Of a DNA stretch of 63,947 nt, positions 4,685 through 44,016 are shown in pieces. Position 1 is the first letter of the stretch. Each line of letters opens with the position of its first letter. The notes under the pieces are model-generated. The model did no database searches, was not told the origin of the DNA, and saw nothing but the letters and a program-made list of their open reading frames with translations. The stretch lies in NCBI GenBank assembly GCA_012730045.1, contig JAAYBR010000041.1, positions 1 to 63,947 on the forward strand, written 5' to 3'. The stretch comes from Candidatus Hydrogenedentota bacterium. Lineage in GTDB: Bacteria; Hydrogenedentota; Hydrogenedentia; Hydrogenedentales; CAITNO01. The position numbers and the translations under genes are program-made.

Positions 4685-5057
4685 GACGCTTCCCTTCCCT
4701 TTGCGGTGCGGGGCGGCGGCGCGGAGGATGCGGCGGTCCGGCCCGCCGCCCTCATTGGGTGCCCCCCCGGGTTCAAGTTGCCCTTTCGCGCCGGGGTCGG
4801 GACGTTTCCGCCCTCCCGCCCGGCGTCTGCGAAACAGGATAGGACAGGCCCCGGAGGTATGTCAAACATCCCCCCACCCCCCTTCCTGCGGGGTGTCGAG
4901 GGGAGGAATGTTACTTCGGGGAAATCGTACCGGGGTTGCATTCGGGGTTCGAATTGTGGTGGAGTTCCGGGTTTGGGGTCCGTTTGCGCCGGGTTGGCGG
5001 GGTTTGTCCCCCCCGTCCGGGCATCGGTTTTTTGGGAAACCTGCAAGGAACTGTCCC
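4685..5057. other. Divergent intergenic region upstream of topA
   Basis: No gene is seen. The only structure noticed is an imperfect inverted repeat, AACAT (4865-4869) to ATGTT (4908-4912), with C-rich and G-rich tracts between. It loosely recalls the GGGGATGTT ends of the repeats at 33.1 and 43.9 kb but is too diverged to assign. Promoters for the two flanking genes must lie here; none was convincing. Confidence 0.4.
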
Positions 5058-9859: not shown

Positions 9860-10614
9860 GCATCCCGGAGGGATGCAGGATATTAGCCGGTGGTTGAGCG
9901 AAGCGATACCACCGGAAAAGGGAGCGAAAACCAACGCACCCCGGAGGGGTGCAGGACCATAGCCGCGGGGAGATACTGCCATGTCGTCCACCTATCTCAG
10001 CCTCCACTATCACTTGGTTTTCGGAACGAAGGAACGCCGTCCCTTTATTGATCCCCCTTGGGGCGCGCGTCTCAACGAATATCTCGGCGGTACTGTGAAA
10101 TCCATGGGCGGCTATCCCGAACGCATCGGCGGTATGGCGGATCACGTCCACCTTCTTGTGGGTCTTAGGGCCACCCATTGCCTGTCGGATTTCGTGAGGG
10201 ATTTGAAGAAGAACTCATCCCTGTGGGTACACAGGGAAATCGGCATGCGCGATTTCGCCTGGCAGGAAGGGTATGCCGCGTTTACGGTCAGCGCCACGGC
10301 GCGCAAGGGGGTGAAGACATACATATCCCGGCAGGGTGAACACCACCGGGCCAAGAGTTTCTCAGAGGAGTTGGCCGGCCTTCTGGAACAAGCCGGGATC
10401 GAATACAATCCGGATTATCTTGCGTGAATCGGGAGGGGGAAGGGTCCTGCACCCCTCCGGGGTGCCACATAAGGCGGGGAGTCCGATGTCCGGTGGTGGC
10501 GCTCCGGCATGGAGTCGGGCGCGGTCCCGGCAAGCGGCACTCATTGCGCCCGCAACTATCCTGCTTTCAAGACCGCGCAACCACCGGCTAATATCCTCCA
10601 CCCCTCCGGGGTGG
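9860..10614. mobile_element. RAYT (REP-associated tyrosine transposase) unit with inverted ends
   Basis: The transposase gene at 9981-10427 lies between inverted arms. The left arm has the hairpin GCATCCC-GGA-GGGATGC (9860-9876), then AGGATATTAGCCGGTGGTT (9877-9895). The right arm has the exact reverse complement of that 19-mer (10579-10597), then CCACCCC-TCC-GGGGTGG (10598-10614). Two more hairpins with GCACCCC/GGGGTGC stems are internal (9936-9952, 10449-10465), and 9887-9915 pairs CCGGTGGT with ACCACCGG. The stems vary with compensating changes, as in REP sequences. A gene-less relative is at 46987-47220. Confidence 0.8.
9981..10427 (+). CDS. REP-associated tyrosine transposase (RAYT, IS200-like Y1 family)
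   Basis: This 148-aa protein belongs to the Y1_Tnp HUH single-strand transposases that recognise and move REP hairpins. It shows the N-terminal YLSLHYHLVFGTKERRP, the HUH motif in GGMADHVHLLVGL, and the family signature YISRQGEHHRAKSF, where Tyr is the expected nucleophile and the Gln helps bind metal. GGGAGA lies about 8 nt before the ATG. Complete length, intact motifs and the surrounding REP-like hairpins suggest it is or recently was active. RAYTs are usually single-copy and immobile themselves but spread their repeats. Confidence 0.92.
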   Translation: MSSTYLSLHYHLVFGTKERRPFIDPPWGARLNEYLGGTVKSMGGYPERIGGMADHVHLLVGLRATHCLSDFVRDLKKNSSLWVHREIGMRDFAWQEGYAAFTVSATARKGVKTYISRQGEHHRAKSFSEELAGLLEQAGIEYNPDYLA

Positions 10615-21986: not shown

Positions 21987-24112
21987 TTTTCCGGGTAAAC
22001 GACCTCCGCCGTCTTCGCGTCGAAGTCCACACGGACCACGACGCCGTTGCTGAACGTGGTCTCCTGCTTCCGCCGCGTGTCGTCCAGGAAACGGTGGTCC
22101 GTCATTTCGGCGAAGGCGCAGGCCTCCTGCAGGGCGCAGGCCTCCTTCACCGTCGCGACGTCGGCGGCGTCCGCCCCCGGCCACACATAGGGCATGCCCG
22201 CGTTCAGCAGGCAGTGGACGCGGCCCGCGTCGCCTTTCGGAATGCCCCAGCCGCCGTCCTCTCCCATTTCCCAGGGCGTCATCAGGCTGTCATGGTAGAC
22301 CAGGTTGAACAGCGGCACGGGGATGGCGCACGCTTCGCCGCCGCCGATGTGGGGATAGGTGGCGTAGGGGCCGTGGTGCACCAGGTGCAGGGTGGCCGCG
22401 AAGTAGTCCGTGGGCTCTTCCGAGCTGACCACATACCCGCGCGCCTTAAGCACGTCGAAGCACTGCCGCCGATAGAGCGCGCTCTCGGCGCGGGTGGTGG
22501 GGTGCGCCTTCCGCGCGCTCTCCTCCGGCGGCACCACGGAGAACACGTCGAGGTACGCGCCGCGCACCGGGATGCCGTTGTCCACGAACCAGTCGTGGTT
22601 GCGGCGGACATAGCCCGGCGCGAAGCGCGGGTTGAGGAAGGTCTGCGGCCCGCCGCACCAGACGCTGTGCTCGTCGCGCTTTCCGTTCAGGTGCGTCAGC
22701 GTGAGGCGCTCGTCGAAGGACGCCGCGTTGAGGTAGAAGTCGCGGTACTGGTCGTGGACGGCGAAGAAGTAGCCCATCTCCGCGCACTTCACGGCGAGGG
22801 CGCGCAGGCCCTCCGCGCCGCCCTGCTCCGCGCCGGCGGGGATGACGTCCGGATGCCCGTCGTCATAGCCGTAGAACCCCCAGCCGTCCAGGTGCACATA
22901 AGCGCTGTCAATCCCGGCGGCCTTCAGCCGCTCCACGTCGGCCCGCAGCTTGTCGAAGGTGTTCAGATTGTGGTTGTCCTCCGGGGTCTCCTTGTTGTAC
23001 ATGGAGGCCTGGGGCACAAAATGGTACAGGGCGCCGAGGTGGACCACCGGCCGCCCGATGACCTCGGCAAGCGCCGGGGAGGCCGCACTTTTCTCCCGCA
23101 GGGAGACGAAGTCGCCCCGCTCGACCACATGCCGGCGGTAACGCTTTGCCAGGGTGACGTGGGTGGCGTTCTGGCTGAAGACATAGCGGACGGTCCGCAG
23201 GTAGGCCATGCGGCCCAGGCTGGCCTGCCACGCCACCCCCGCGCGGGTGGGCCCGCCCTCCGGGTGGACGTAGTAGCCCGCCGCGTCAAACGGCGTCTCG
23301 ATGATCGCCTGCGCGCCGTGGCCGTTCCGGAGGTGCCCCCACCACGGCATGTAGTGGGTGCGCGAGTTGACGGTCTCCAGCGACTGGATGTGCTGGGGCC
23401 AGTCCCCGGGCAGGAGCATGCCCTGCATCCGGGGGATGACCGCCACCTCGCCGGGCGTTTTGTCGGTGAGCAGCGGCTTGGGCCAGCGGATTTCCTTCAG
23501 CACCGCGTCCGTGTCCTCCGCCGCCAGGTCAAACACGACCTCCGGCCCCTCGCAGTGCGCCGACACATGCAGTGCGAAACCCGGGGCCTTCTCGAAGTCC
23601 GAGAAGGACACCACCATGCCCGCAGACCAGCCCGTGAAGAGGCGCTCCGCCCGCACCGAGCGCGCGTCCCTCAGGCGCAGGTTTCCGGCCTCCATCTGGA
23701 TGTCCAGGTCGTCGCTCTCCGCAAAGGTCCAGGTCTGCCCGCCGGCGGCGACCTCCATGGCCAGCGTGTCGCGCCGCCAGGTGAACGTCAGATCCTCCGT
23801 GGCGACCCGCCAGTGCTCCGGCGTCTCCTCGAAGGTTCCCCCGGCGATGACCGGCTTGTCCTGGCTGTGCGCCAGGAGCCACGCGCGCGTTTCGTCAAAG
23901 GCCGTGTAGAGCGCCGCGAAGGACTCCGCGCTGTCCGCCCCGGCAGTCAGCCGCTCCCGGAGCGCCGCGAGGCGCGCCGTCTTCTCCGCCGCCGCCCCCT
24001 CCTCCACGACGACCGCCTCCAGACGGTCCGCATAGGACGACACGGTGGCCACCCGGGCGTCCCATTCTCCGGCGGAAAGCGACAGCATCACACACATCAC
24101 GGCTGCAAACAT
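21983..24112 (-). CDS. Secreted DUF5696-like glycoside-hydrolase-type protein
   Basis: A 709-aa protein with a signal peptide (MFAAVMCVMLSLSAGEW). The middle and C-terminal parts look like a TIM barrel related to GH101/DUF5696 proteins: AGIDSAYVHLDGWGFYGYDDG, a second acidic segment in PVRGAYLDVFSVVPPEE, and VVSSEEPTDYF. These three acidic loops could hold catalytic residues. AAGGAGAACC precedes the ATG at 24112, which starts right at the signal peptide. It is coupled to the downstream glycosyltransferase. Substrate unknown; the assignment rests on overall pattern and should be tested by profile search. Confidence 0.7.
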   Translation of the reverse strand: MFAAVMCVMLSLSAGEWDARVATVSSYADRLEAVVVEEGAAAEKTARLAALRERLTAGADSAESFAALYTAFDETRAWLLAHSQDKPVIAGGTFEETPEHWRVATEDLTFTWRRDTLAMEVAAGGQTWTFAESDDLDIQMEAGNLRLRDARSVRAERLFTGWSAGMVVSFSDFEKAPGFALHVSAHCEGPEVVFDLAAEDTDAVLKEIRWPKPLLTDKTPGEVAVIPRMQGMLLPGDWPQHIQSLETVNSRTHYMPWWGHLRNGHGAQAIIETPFDAAGYYVHPEGGPTRAGVAWQASLGRMAYLRTVRYVFSQNATHVTLAKRYRRHVVERGDFVSLREKSAASPALAEVIGRPVVHLGALYHFVPQASMYNKETPEDNHNLNTFDKLRADVERLKAAGIDSAYVHLDGWGFYGYDDGHPDVIPAGAEQGGAEGLRALAVKCAEMGYFFAVHDQYRDFYLNAASFDERLTLTHLNGKRDEHSVWCGGPQTFLNPRFAPGYVRRNHDWFVDNGIPVRGAYLDVFSVVPPEESARKAHPTTRAESALYRRQCFDVLKARGYVVSSEEPTDYFAATLHLVHHGPYATYPHIGGGEACAIPVPLFNLVYHDSLMTPWEMGEDGGWGIPKGDAGRVHCLLNAGMPYVWPGADAADVATVKEACALQEACAFAEMTDHRFLDDTRRKQETTFSNGVVVRVDFDAKTAEVVYPEK

Positions 24113-32961: not shown

Positions 32962-33020
32962 GGTCGGGGACGCTCTTCTGTTCTGTAGGCGGTCCCGGAA
33001 ACGCGACCTCAAGGCGGCAC

Positions 33021-33155
33021 GCAGAACGAACCGGGCGCACGCTGTCCGGATACCCCCTTCGGCCGCGAGCAGAACGAACCGGGCGAACACTGCCCGGGTC
33101 CCCCCTTCGGCCGCGAGCAGAACGAACCGGGCGAACACTGTCCGGGTCCCCCCTT
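33021..33155. repeat. 48-bp tandem repeat, about 2.8 units
   Basis: Units start at 33021, 33069 and 33117, each with GCAGAACGAACCGGGCG. Between them come variable bases and then CCCCCTTCGGCCGCGA. The third unit runs into the left arm of the inverted repeat at 33141, sharing TCCGGGTCCCCCCTT with it. No spacers as in CRISPR: copies are directly joined. The rest of 32962-33298 holds a 9-bp inverted pair TTGAGGTCG (32955-32963) / CGACCTCAA (33003-33011). Confidence 0.75.
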
Positions 33156-33246
33156 CAGGGGGGGGTGGTTCGCGGGAGCGAACAGGGGGATGTTCTTAAT
33201 TTCGGGCTGTTCCCAGTTGCCCGGGCCCCCCATTACCCCTTGCGAA

Positions 33247-33275
33247 TTGCCATCTTGTCACACCATTCGTAGAAT
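33247..33275 (+). promoter_or_regulatory. Promoter of the DUF559 nuclease gene
   Basis: TTGCCA (33247-33252) and TAGAAT (33270-33275) are 17 bp apart, 23 bp before the ATG at 33299, and both lie inside the inverted repeat. The gene therefore carries its own promoter within the unit. Confidence 0.6.
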
Positions 33276-33298
33276 AATTGAACAACGCGGAGAGCACC

Positions 33299-33676
33299 AT
33301 GGCCGTCACGCGGAAAAACCTCCCCTACGAGCCGCACCTCGCCACCCTCGCGCGCAATCTCCGAAAGCGCGGCACCCTGGGCGAGGTGCTGCTGTGGCAG
33401 GCACTCAAGGGGAAGGCTCTCGGGGTGGCATTTCACCGCCAGGTCCCCGTGGACCGCTACATTCTCGACTTCTTCTGCCTGGAGAGGATGCTGGCGGTGG
33501 AGGTGGATGGAGAGACGCATGAACACCCCGATGCGGGCGTTCGCGATGTTGTCCGCCAGGAGCGGCTGGAAGCCTTCGGCATCAGGGTGATCCGCTTCAC
33601 GGAGGCGGAAGTGCGGCAGGACGTTTCCCGCGTGGTCGCGGCCATTGGCAGCGCCGTGGTGAAAGGCGCGGAGTAA
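33299..33676 (+). CDS. DUF559 endonuclease-domain protein (Vsr-like fold)
   Basis: A 125-aa protein of the DUF559 family, related to very-short-patch-repair (Vsr) and PD-(D/E)xK nucleases. Seen: LARNLRKRGTLGEVLLWQAL, FHRQVPVDRYILDFFC (catalytic-type Asp), LAVEVDGETHEH (Glu-x-Asp and His) and the strand FGIRVIRFTEAEV. The full domain is present, so it is likely folded and perhaps active. The ATG is chosen over an upstream TTG (33278) because GGAGAG stands 4 nt before it. It is alone between the arms of a perfect inverted repeat. Whether it cuts DNA at the repeat, aids repair or is only a passenger is unknown. Confidence 0.88.
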   Translation: MAVTRKNLPYEPHLATLARNLRKRGTLGEVLLWQALKGKALGVAFHRQVPVDRYILDFFCLERMLAVEVDGETHEHPDAGVRDVVRQERLEAFGIRVIRFTEAEVRQDVSRVVAAIGSAVVKGAE

Positions 33677-33809
33677 AGAACATCCCCCTGTTCGCTCCCG
33701 CGAACCACCCCCCCCTGAAGGGGGGACCCGGATGGGGAGCGCCCCGCGGTCACCTGACCGTCCACCGGACAAATGTCACATGGCCGCGATCGCTTTGACC
33801 CCGGTCCCG

Positions 33810-43886: not shown

Positions 43887-44016
43887 GGTCCCCCCTTGAG
43901 GGGGGTGGTTCGCGGGAGCGAACCGGGGGATGTTCCGGATTCTGGGATGCTGGCGGGCAGTAAGAACATCCCCCGTCCGCGAAGACGCGGCCACCCCCCT
44001 CAAGGGGGGACCCGGA
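43887..44016. repeat. Gene-less relative of the nuclease-bounding inverted repeat
   Basis: Left arm 43887-43936 has CCCCCC-TTGA-GGGGGG, then GGTTCGC-GGGA-GCGAACC, then GGGGGATGTTCC. Right arm 43962-44016, read on the other strand, has the same outer hairpin and the same GGGGGATGTTCTT end, but its middle hairpin is CCGCG-AAGA-CGCGG. Only 25 bp separate the arms. It ends 58 bp before the HAD gene and may affect that transcript. Confidence 0.75.

Follow-up and report, generated by a model that had tools for sequence, protein, structure and literature searches.

Catalogues of BoxC or "triplex" repeats cover hundreds of bacterial genomes, and these repeats are tied to local instability. To our knowledge, their spread has gone unexplained since the 1990s and no enzyme has been assigned to them. 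The TM repeat of Escherichia coli folds as a triplex in vitro, 23 copies were counted in MG1655, and mobility functions were never found around these repeats (Holder et al., 2015; PMC4666352). Genome-dispersed inverted doublets are also the hallmark of REPIN-RAYT systems, which pair them with a low-copy enzyme gene (Bertels and Rainey, 2011; PMC3116915). The E. coli protein YcjD, a member of the family DUF559, was earlier predicted to be PD-(D/E)XK and Vsr-like (PMC1189080). Its gene is present or absent by lineage, with eefRABCD in its place in others (PMC12817139).

Here we describe a DUF559 gene between inverted arms in a 63,947-nt stretch of DNA (the window; contig C41) belonging to a 4.46-Mb draft genome. 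Our main reading, to which we give a probability of about 0.6, is that DUF559 is the cognate nuclease spreading or maintaining the arm repeats, and that the locus belongs to a REPIN-like system as one of its gene-bearing copies.

The window locus and its nuclease

The window contains two 57-nt arms that are perfectly complementary in inverted orientation and enclose a single intact DUF559 gene (Table 1), in agreement with the first-pass annotation; with relaxed matching, they extend to 84 nt at 87% identity (33129-33212 and 33661-33744). The last base of the TAA stop codon (33674-33676) also belongs to the right arm, as had been noted. The sigma70-like promoter described earlier is present as well, but it sits between the left arm and the gene, not within an arm. 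Folding of the arm as single-stranded DNA recovered both of the hairpins that had been read from it (z = -2.4 relative to shuffles). Outside the left arm, each of the 48-nt tandem units finishes with the opening 15-16 nt of the arm, as TCCGGGTCCCCCCTTC or in a variant form. The perfect identity of the arms had been taken to imply a recent origin; this argument is weak because copies of the same arm type elsewhere are 90-98% alike.

Table 1. Coordinates of arms, genes, and associated features (window positions unless a contig is given).
Feature	Position	Strand	Remarks
Three 48-nt tandem units	33013-33156	+	Continue into left arm
Left arm	33141-33197	+	Genome-wide repeat
Left arm, first hairpin	33148-33165		C6-TTCA-G6+
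Left arm, second hairpin	33168-33183		GTTCGC-GGGA-GCGAAC
Left arm, third G-strand and tail	33185-33197		GGGGGATGTTCTT
Sigma70-like promoter	33247-33275	+	TTGCCA (33247-33252)-N17-TAGAAT (33270-33275); consensus only
DUF559 (YcjD/Vsr-like PD-(D/E)XK) nuclease gene	33299-33676	+	125 aa from ATG
Right arm	33676-33732	-	Perfect reverse complement of left arm; base 1 common to stop codon
A/B arm doublet without gene	43887-44016	+	28-nt centre; presumed non-autonomous copy
Doublet, type A arm	43887-43935	+	
Doublet, type B arm	43961-44015	-	
Second DUF559 gene	C47:22390-22707		Between inverted arms 22325-22383 and 22866-22916

The encoded protein matches the Pfam profile of DUF559 (PF04480) with 92.6 bits against a curated cut-off of 20.6, which upholds the earlier reading of one complete Vsr/DUF559-type gene, and its nearest named relatives are from Candidatus Hydrogenedentota. 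The conserved acidic and His residues D57, E68, D70, and H74 are present and invariant. For the predicted structure (pLDDT 87), the best fold match is 3hrl (E 3.7e-7), followed by the catalytic domain of the homing endonuclease I-Bth0305I, with Vsr weaker. The model thus points to a PD-(D/E)XK/Vsr-like fold with conserved acidic residues. Neither this protein nor YcjD matched any defence system in PADLOC.

Several related DUF559 domains lie within longer reading frames. In Mucilaginibacter (L195), one is in frame within an Lhr-type DEAD helicase, between the DEAD and Helicase_C domains. Two others (L046 and L048) are in frame inside HsdM-like long ORFs together with an arm-derived peptide (SPLPLGEGVGVRG), which suggests in-frame insertion of the element. 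A further two (L054 and L061) are found within ORFs whose ends look intein-like (CVIHNC). Such sequences had raised the suspicion that inteins host some DUF559 domains; this idea was set aside because Pfam detected no Hint domain in the related L053.

Dispersed copies and site occupancy

A genome-wide search with a 66-nt arm query gave 37 matches at E <= 0.1, representing about 35 places, and the arms are therefore not specific to the window locus. The genome holds two DUF559 genes, and both (2/2) lie between inverted arms. Because the arm is dispersed and the second gene is likewise flanked, the inverted repeat in the window is not a product of chance; with about 35 arms in 4.46 Mb, the probability of arms falling by chance on both sides of both genes is negligible. 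Most of the other copies form asymmetric inverted doublets in a REPIN-like layout, each consisting of a type A arm and an inverted type B arm around a centre of 28-29 nt that is variable in sequence and nearly constant in length. The second hairpin is GTTCGC-GGGA-GCGAAC in type A and is built around CGCG-TCTT-CGCG in type B, and the inverted pairs of this genome join one type with the other. Such fixed-centre doublets were found in Mucilaginibacter too. Rfam returned weak matches only (whalefall-1, 18 bits, E 0.09). Two doublets (L015 and L031; C62:36152 and C100:5148) have a second palindrome (GAGATTGCTTCGCTTCGCTCGCAATGAC...) inserted at the centre, and a weak triplex-type match (CCCCGCAGGAAGGGGGGTGGGGGGATGT) is located on the minus strand of the window at 4866-4893.

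Comparison with G001, the sole other genome of the same genus and one without a DUF559 match, revealed site polymorphism. When the two flanks of the C47 element are joined, they match G001 contiguously over 594 nt, with sequence resembling an arm end at the site, and the genes that flank the window element are nearly end to end there. The site of a doublet at C2:96936 (L020) is also unoccupied in G001; the corresponding insertion measures 254 nt, is flanked by a duplicated TAGGC (5 bp), and has its ends outside the doublet. Since these orthologous sites are occupied here and unoccupied in G001, copies differ in place between species; at the gene-bearing sites either gain or loss may underlie the difference, which counts against the main reading. 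The first-pass annotation had reasoned that arms beside many gene types, with no polymorphism of empty sites, would speak against a mobile unit. The many gene types are partly so, and the polymorphism exists. In other genomes, gene-bearing units have been duplicated at unrelated sites, with two copies in G072 (89% over 590 nt) and three in G068. In both, the common sequence runs 50-120 nt past the arms, a further point against the main reading.

No clear target duplication is seen at the C47 or window site, and the 5-bp TAGGC was found at one doublet-bearing insertion. That insertion is what a conventional transposase would leave, which counts against mobility by DUF559. Another enzyme, namely, a RAYT or a DDE transposase acting on a MITE, could thus move the arms, with the DUF559 gene as a captured passenger. 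Five Y1_Tnp genes in this genome, one of them in the window, are in line with this explanation, as are the outer GTGGCAGAAG-like ends common to several doublets. However, the RAYT in the window has its own, different REPs, and for this reason it is probably not the mover of the arms; triplex-type arms were absent from this locus and from eight other RAYT loci examined. We consider movement by another enzyme unlikely, also in view of the distribution across phyla given below.

Two observations from these regions may be recorded separately. The RAYT/Y1_Tnp gene (9996-10460) and its REPs (CACCCCGGAGGGGTGCAGGA...TAGCCG; inverted 40-nt copies, 90%) occupy 9860-10613, such that one window houses two unrelated repeat-plus-enzyme systems. 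Moreover, some doublets (L014 and L020 at C58:6177 and C2:96936, as well as L013, L025, and L029) are embedded in a repeat of ~250 bp with outer GTGGCAGAAG/CTTCTGCCAC ends.

Arms and DUF559 genes in other genomes

For named relatives of the window protein, 80 loci were fetched in a scan that took a single genome from each species, and 78 were testable. Inverted arms that score at least 18 and lie no more than 400 nt from the domain flank the DUF559 gene at 54 of these 78 loci, compared to 0/468 control positions, which were randomly placed pseudo-genes within the same loci. Loci from other phyla, fetched by the Pfam profile and tested separately, mostly have inverted flanking arms as well, such as those in Sinorhizobium meliloti pSymB (inverted arms of 114 nt), Deinococcus proteolyticus, and Sphingomonas; at several alphaproteobacterial and gammaproteobacterial loci of this set, a flanking pair was not seen. 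A literature search, with most subscription journals and bioRxiv outside its range, returned no relevant paper linking DUF559 to inverted or palindromic repeats. The association is both real and general, and it appears to be undescribed.

The controls also bear on the possibility that the arms are mere terminators or RNA-stability hairpins, paired around DUF559 incidentally. The arms are indeed GC-rich hairpins in intergenic positions. Nevertheless, the absence of such arms at all control positions disfavours this explanation, a terminator needs neither a third G-strand nor a tail, and PIT/BoxC repeats were reported to have neither terminator nor promoter activity (PMC4666352). We regard it as very improbable.

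The arms follow a common plan: a C-rich strand, a loop, a G-rich strand, a second loop or hairpin, and a third G-rich strand with a tail. Tails differ by clade: GGGGGATGT in that of the window protein, GGGGTGTGT in another, and GGGTGAGGG in the YcjD-like one. Mapped onto a tree of 126 proteins, which is based on few columns and has many weak forks and some near-copies among its rows, the three tail types require three changes, compared to a mean of 27.3 after shuffling (0/200 shuffles as low). Arm type and protein thus co-segregate, and the hosts on the tree are mixed (Bacteroidota, Hydrogenedentota, Verrucomicrobiota, Planctomycetota, and Calditrichota). Within Bacteroidota, both main tail types are present, each tracking the protein. 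A passenger gene captured between two arms would not be expected to recur in this way across many phyla, nor would arm type be expected to follow its protein clade.

The second hairpin of the arms is free in sequence among relatives, and its pairing is kept. In 43-nt arms, two-sided changes were found at 5/7 pairs of this hairpin, and its covariation is 0.369 versus 0.158 in shuffles (0/500 as high); the 38-nt arms agree. The arm search pattern left this hairpin unconstrained. The first stem and tail are invariant in both arm sets, which is partly built in because the same pattern fixed most of their bases.

At the genome level, a strict arm pattern was applied to 29 near relatives. All six genomes with a strong DUF559 match have 39-117 arms, whereas 6 of the 23 others have any arms (p = 0.002). 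The link is weaker in Mucilaginibacter, where arms are present in 64 of the 87 genomes with any DUF559 match and in 7 of the 14 without (p = 0.11, not significant); when stand-alone DUF559 genes from a score-limited list are considered instead, the figures are 50/57 and 21/44 (p = 3e-4). Genomes that have many arms and no detected DUF559 gene, namely, Mucilaginibacter G203 (99 arms) and G192 (41 arms) as well as G019, G025, and G027, are a real caveat. Draft assemblies break at repeats, and therefore DUF559 genes could be hidden in such arm-rich genomes.

In E. coli, we found that ycjD adjoins the BoxC repeat TMECO 9 (1,351,204-1,351,239). In strain K-12 (L107, 2452-2660), a truncated inverted BoxC arm and then the full one (TMECO 9) come after the gene, and strain KE47 (L095) has a full BoxC arm at the 3' end of the gene. 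Because relatives of the window protein across bacteria usually lie between inverted, matching repeats as it does, DUF559 is a good candidate partner of BoxC/triplex repeats.

A possible route of movement and comparison with known systems

The first-pass annotation had likened the locus to RAYT/REP as a nuclease-driven mobile unit. The association is borne out by the data above; that DUF559 would bind and cleave the arms and drive their movement, and the mechanism by which it may do so, we infer. Under the cognate-nuclease reading, a homing-like route is conceivable, although we would put it at somewhat less than even odds. In our view, DUF559 would most likely recognise its own arm type while the arm is extruded or single-stranded (e.g., on the lagging strand) and would nick or cut next to the arm tail. 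Pairs of arms, whether or not they enclose the gene, would then be copied to new sites through repair or template switching, and A/B doublets that lack the gene would be mobilised in trans. The tandem units outside the left arm would fit abortive copying. A nuclease by itself has no strand-transfer activity, which counts against mobility of this kind.

DUF559 may instead be a maintenance or repair nuclease that acts on replication-stalling arms, in which case the arms would have spread otherwise and the gene would be kept near them, perhaps for regulation. The Vsr-like fold and the end of the window gene inside an arm are compatible with such a role, and triplex-type arms block polymerases in vitro and have been connected with local instability (PMC4666352). 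However, it leaves unexplained the inverted arms on both sides, the duplicated gene-bearing units, and the site polymorphism, and we judge it rather unlikely.

If the cognate-nuclease reading is true, an enzyme unrelated to RAYT would serve a REPIN-like system, nucleases that tend repeats would have evolved convergently, and intrastrand triplex DNA might have a biological recogniser. We tentatively suggest, with less than even confidence, a class of minimal mobile elements in which a stand-alone Vsr/homing-type PD-(D/E)XK nuclease, with no recombinase or transposase, recognises a triplex-folded arm and disperses BoxC-type repeats across phyla. In any case, a nuclease co-segregating with arm type provides a testable partner for an orphan repeat class, and the testable pairs include ycjD of laboratory E. 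coli and the BoxC next to it.

Among described repeats, the arms most resemble BoxC/PIT/TM (PMC4666352), and while the earlier annotation knew of no described element of this form, the arm class itself resembles these intrastrand triplex motifs. Both have a C-rich stem, a G-rich stem, and a third G-rich strand in order, dispersed intergenic copies, types A and B set by the second loop, inverted pairs that are always A plus B, and site variability between strains. The differences are in the second loop, which in the window arms is usually a hairpin (~20 nt, compared to 1-6 nt in the ITxF definition, with a short loop, ATTTA, in some relatives), in the tail (GGGGGATGT, not GGGTGAGGG), and in the DUF559 nuclease between the arms, whereas Holder et al. 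saw no mobility function near their repeats. Because the long second hairpin exceeds the published loop limits, we call the arms BoxC-like rather than members of BoxC, with a triplex architecture as read from sequence.

The window protein shares its Pfam family with YcjD and with NGO0050 of Neisseria gonorrhoeae (PDB 3hrl), although it is distant from both in sequence (32% identity to 3hrl over the fold alignment), and unlike the window locus, ycjD in K-12 has degenerate arms and no clean flanking pair. The modelled fold also resembles EDxHD homing endonucleases through I-Bth0305I, but there is no intron or intein at the window locus. The nearest working analogue is REPIN-RAYT (PMC3116915); the two share genome-dispersed inverted doublets, a low-copy enzyme gene that lies next to its cognate repeats or between them, and agreement of repeat type with enzyme clade. 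They differ in that REPs are simple palindromes whereas the arms here are of the triplex type, and in that a PD-(D/E)XK nuclease takes the place of the HUH/Y1 transposase by which REPIN-RAYT is defined.
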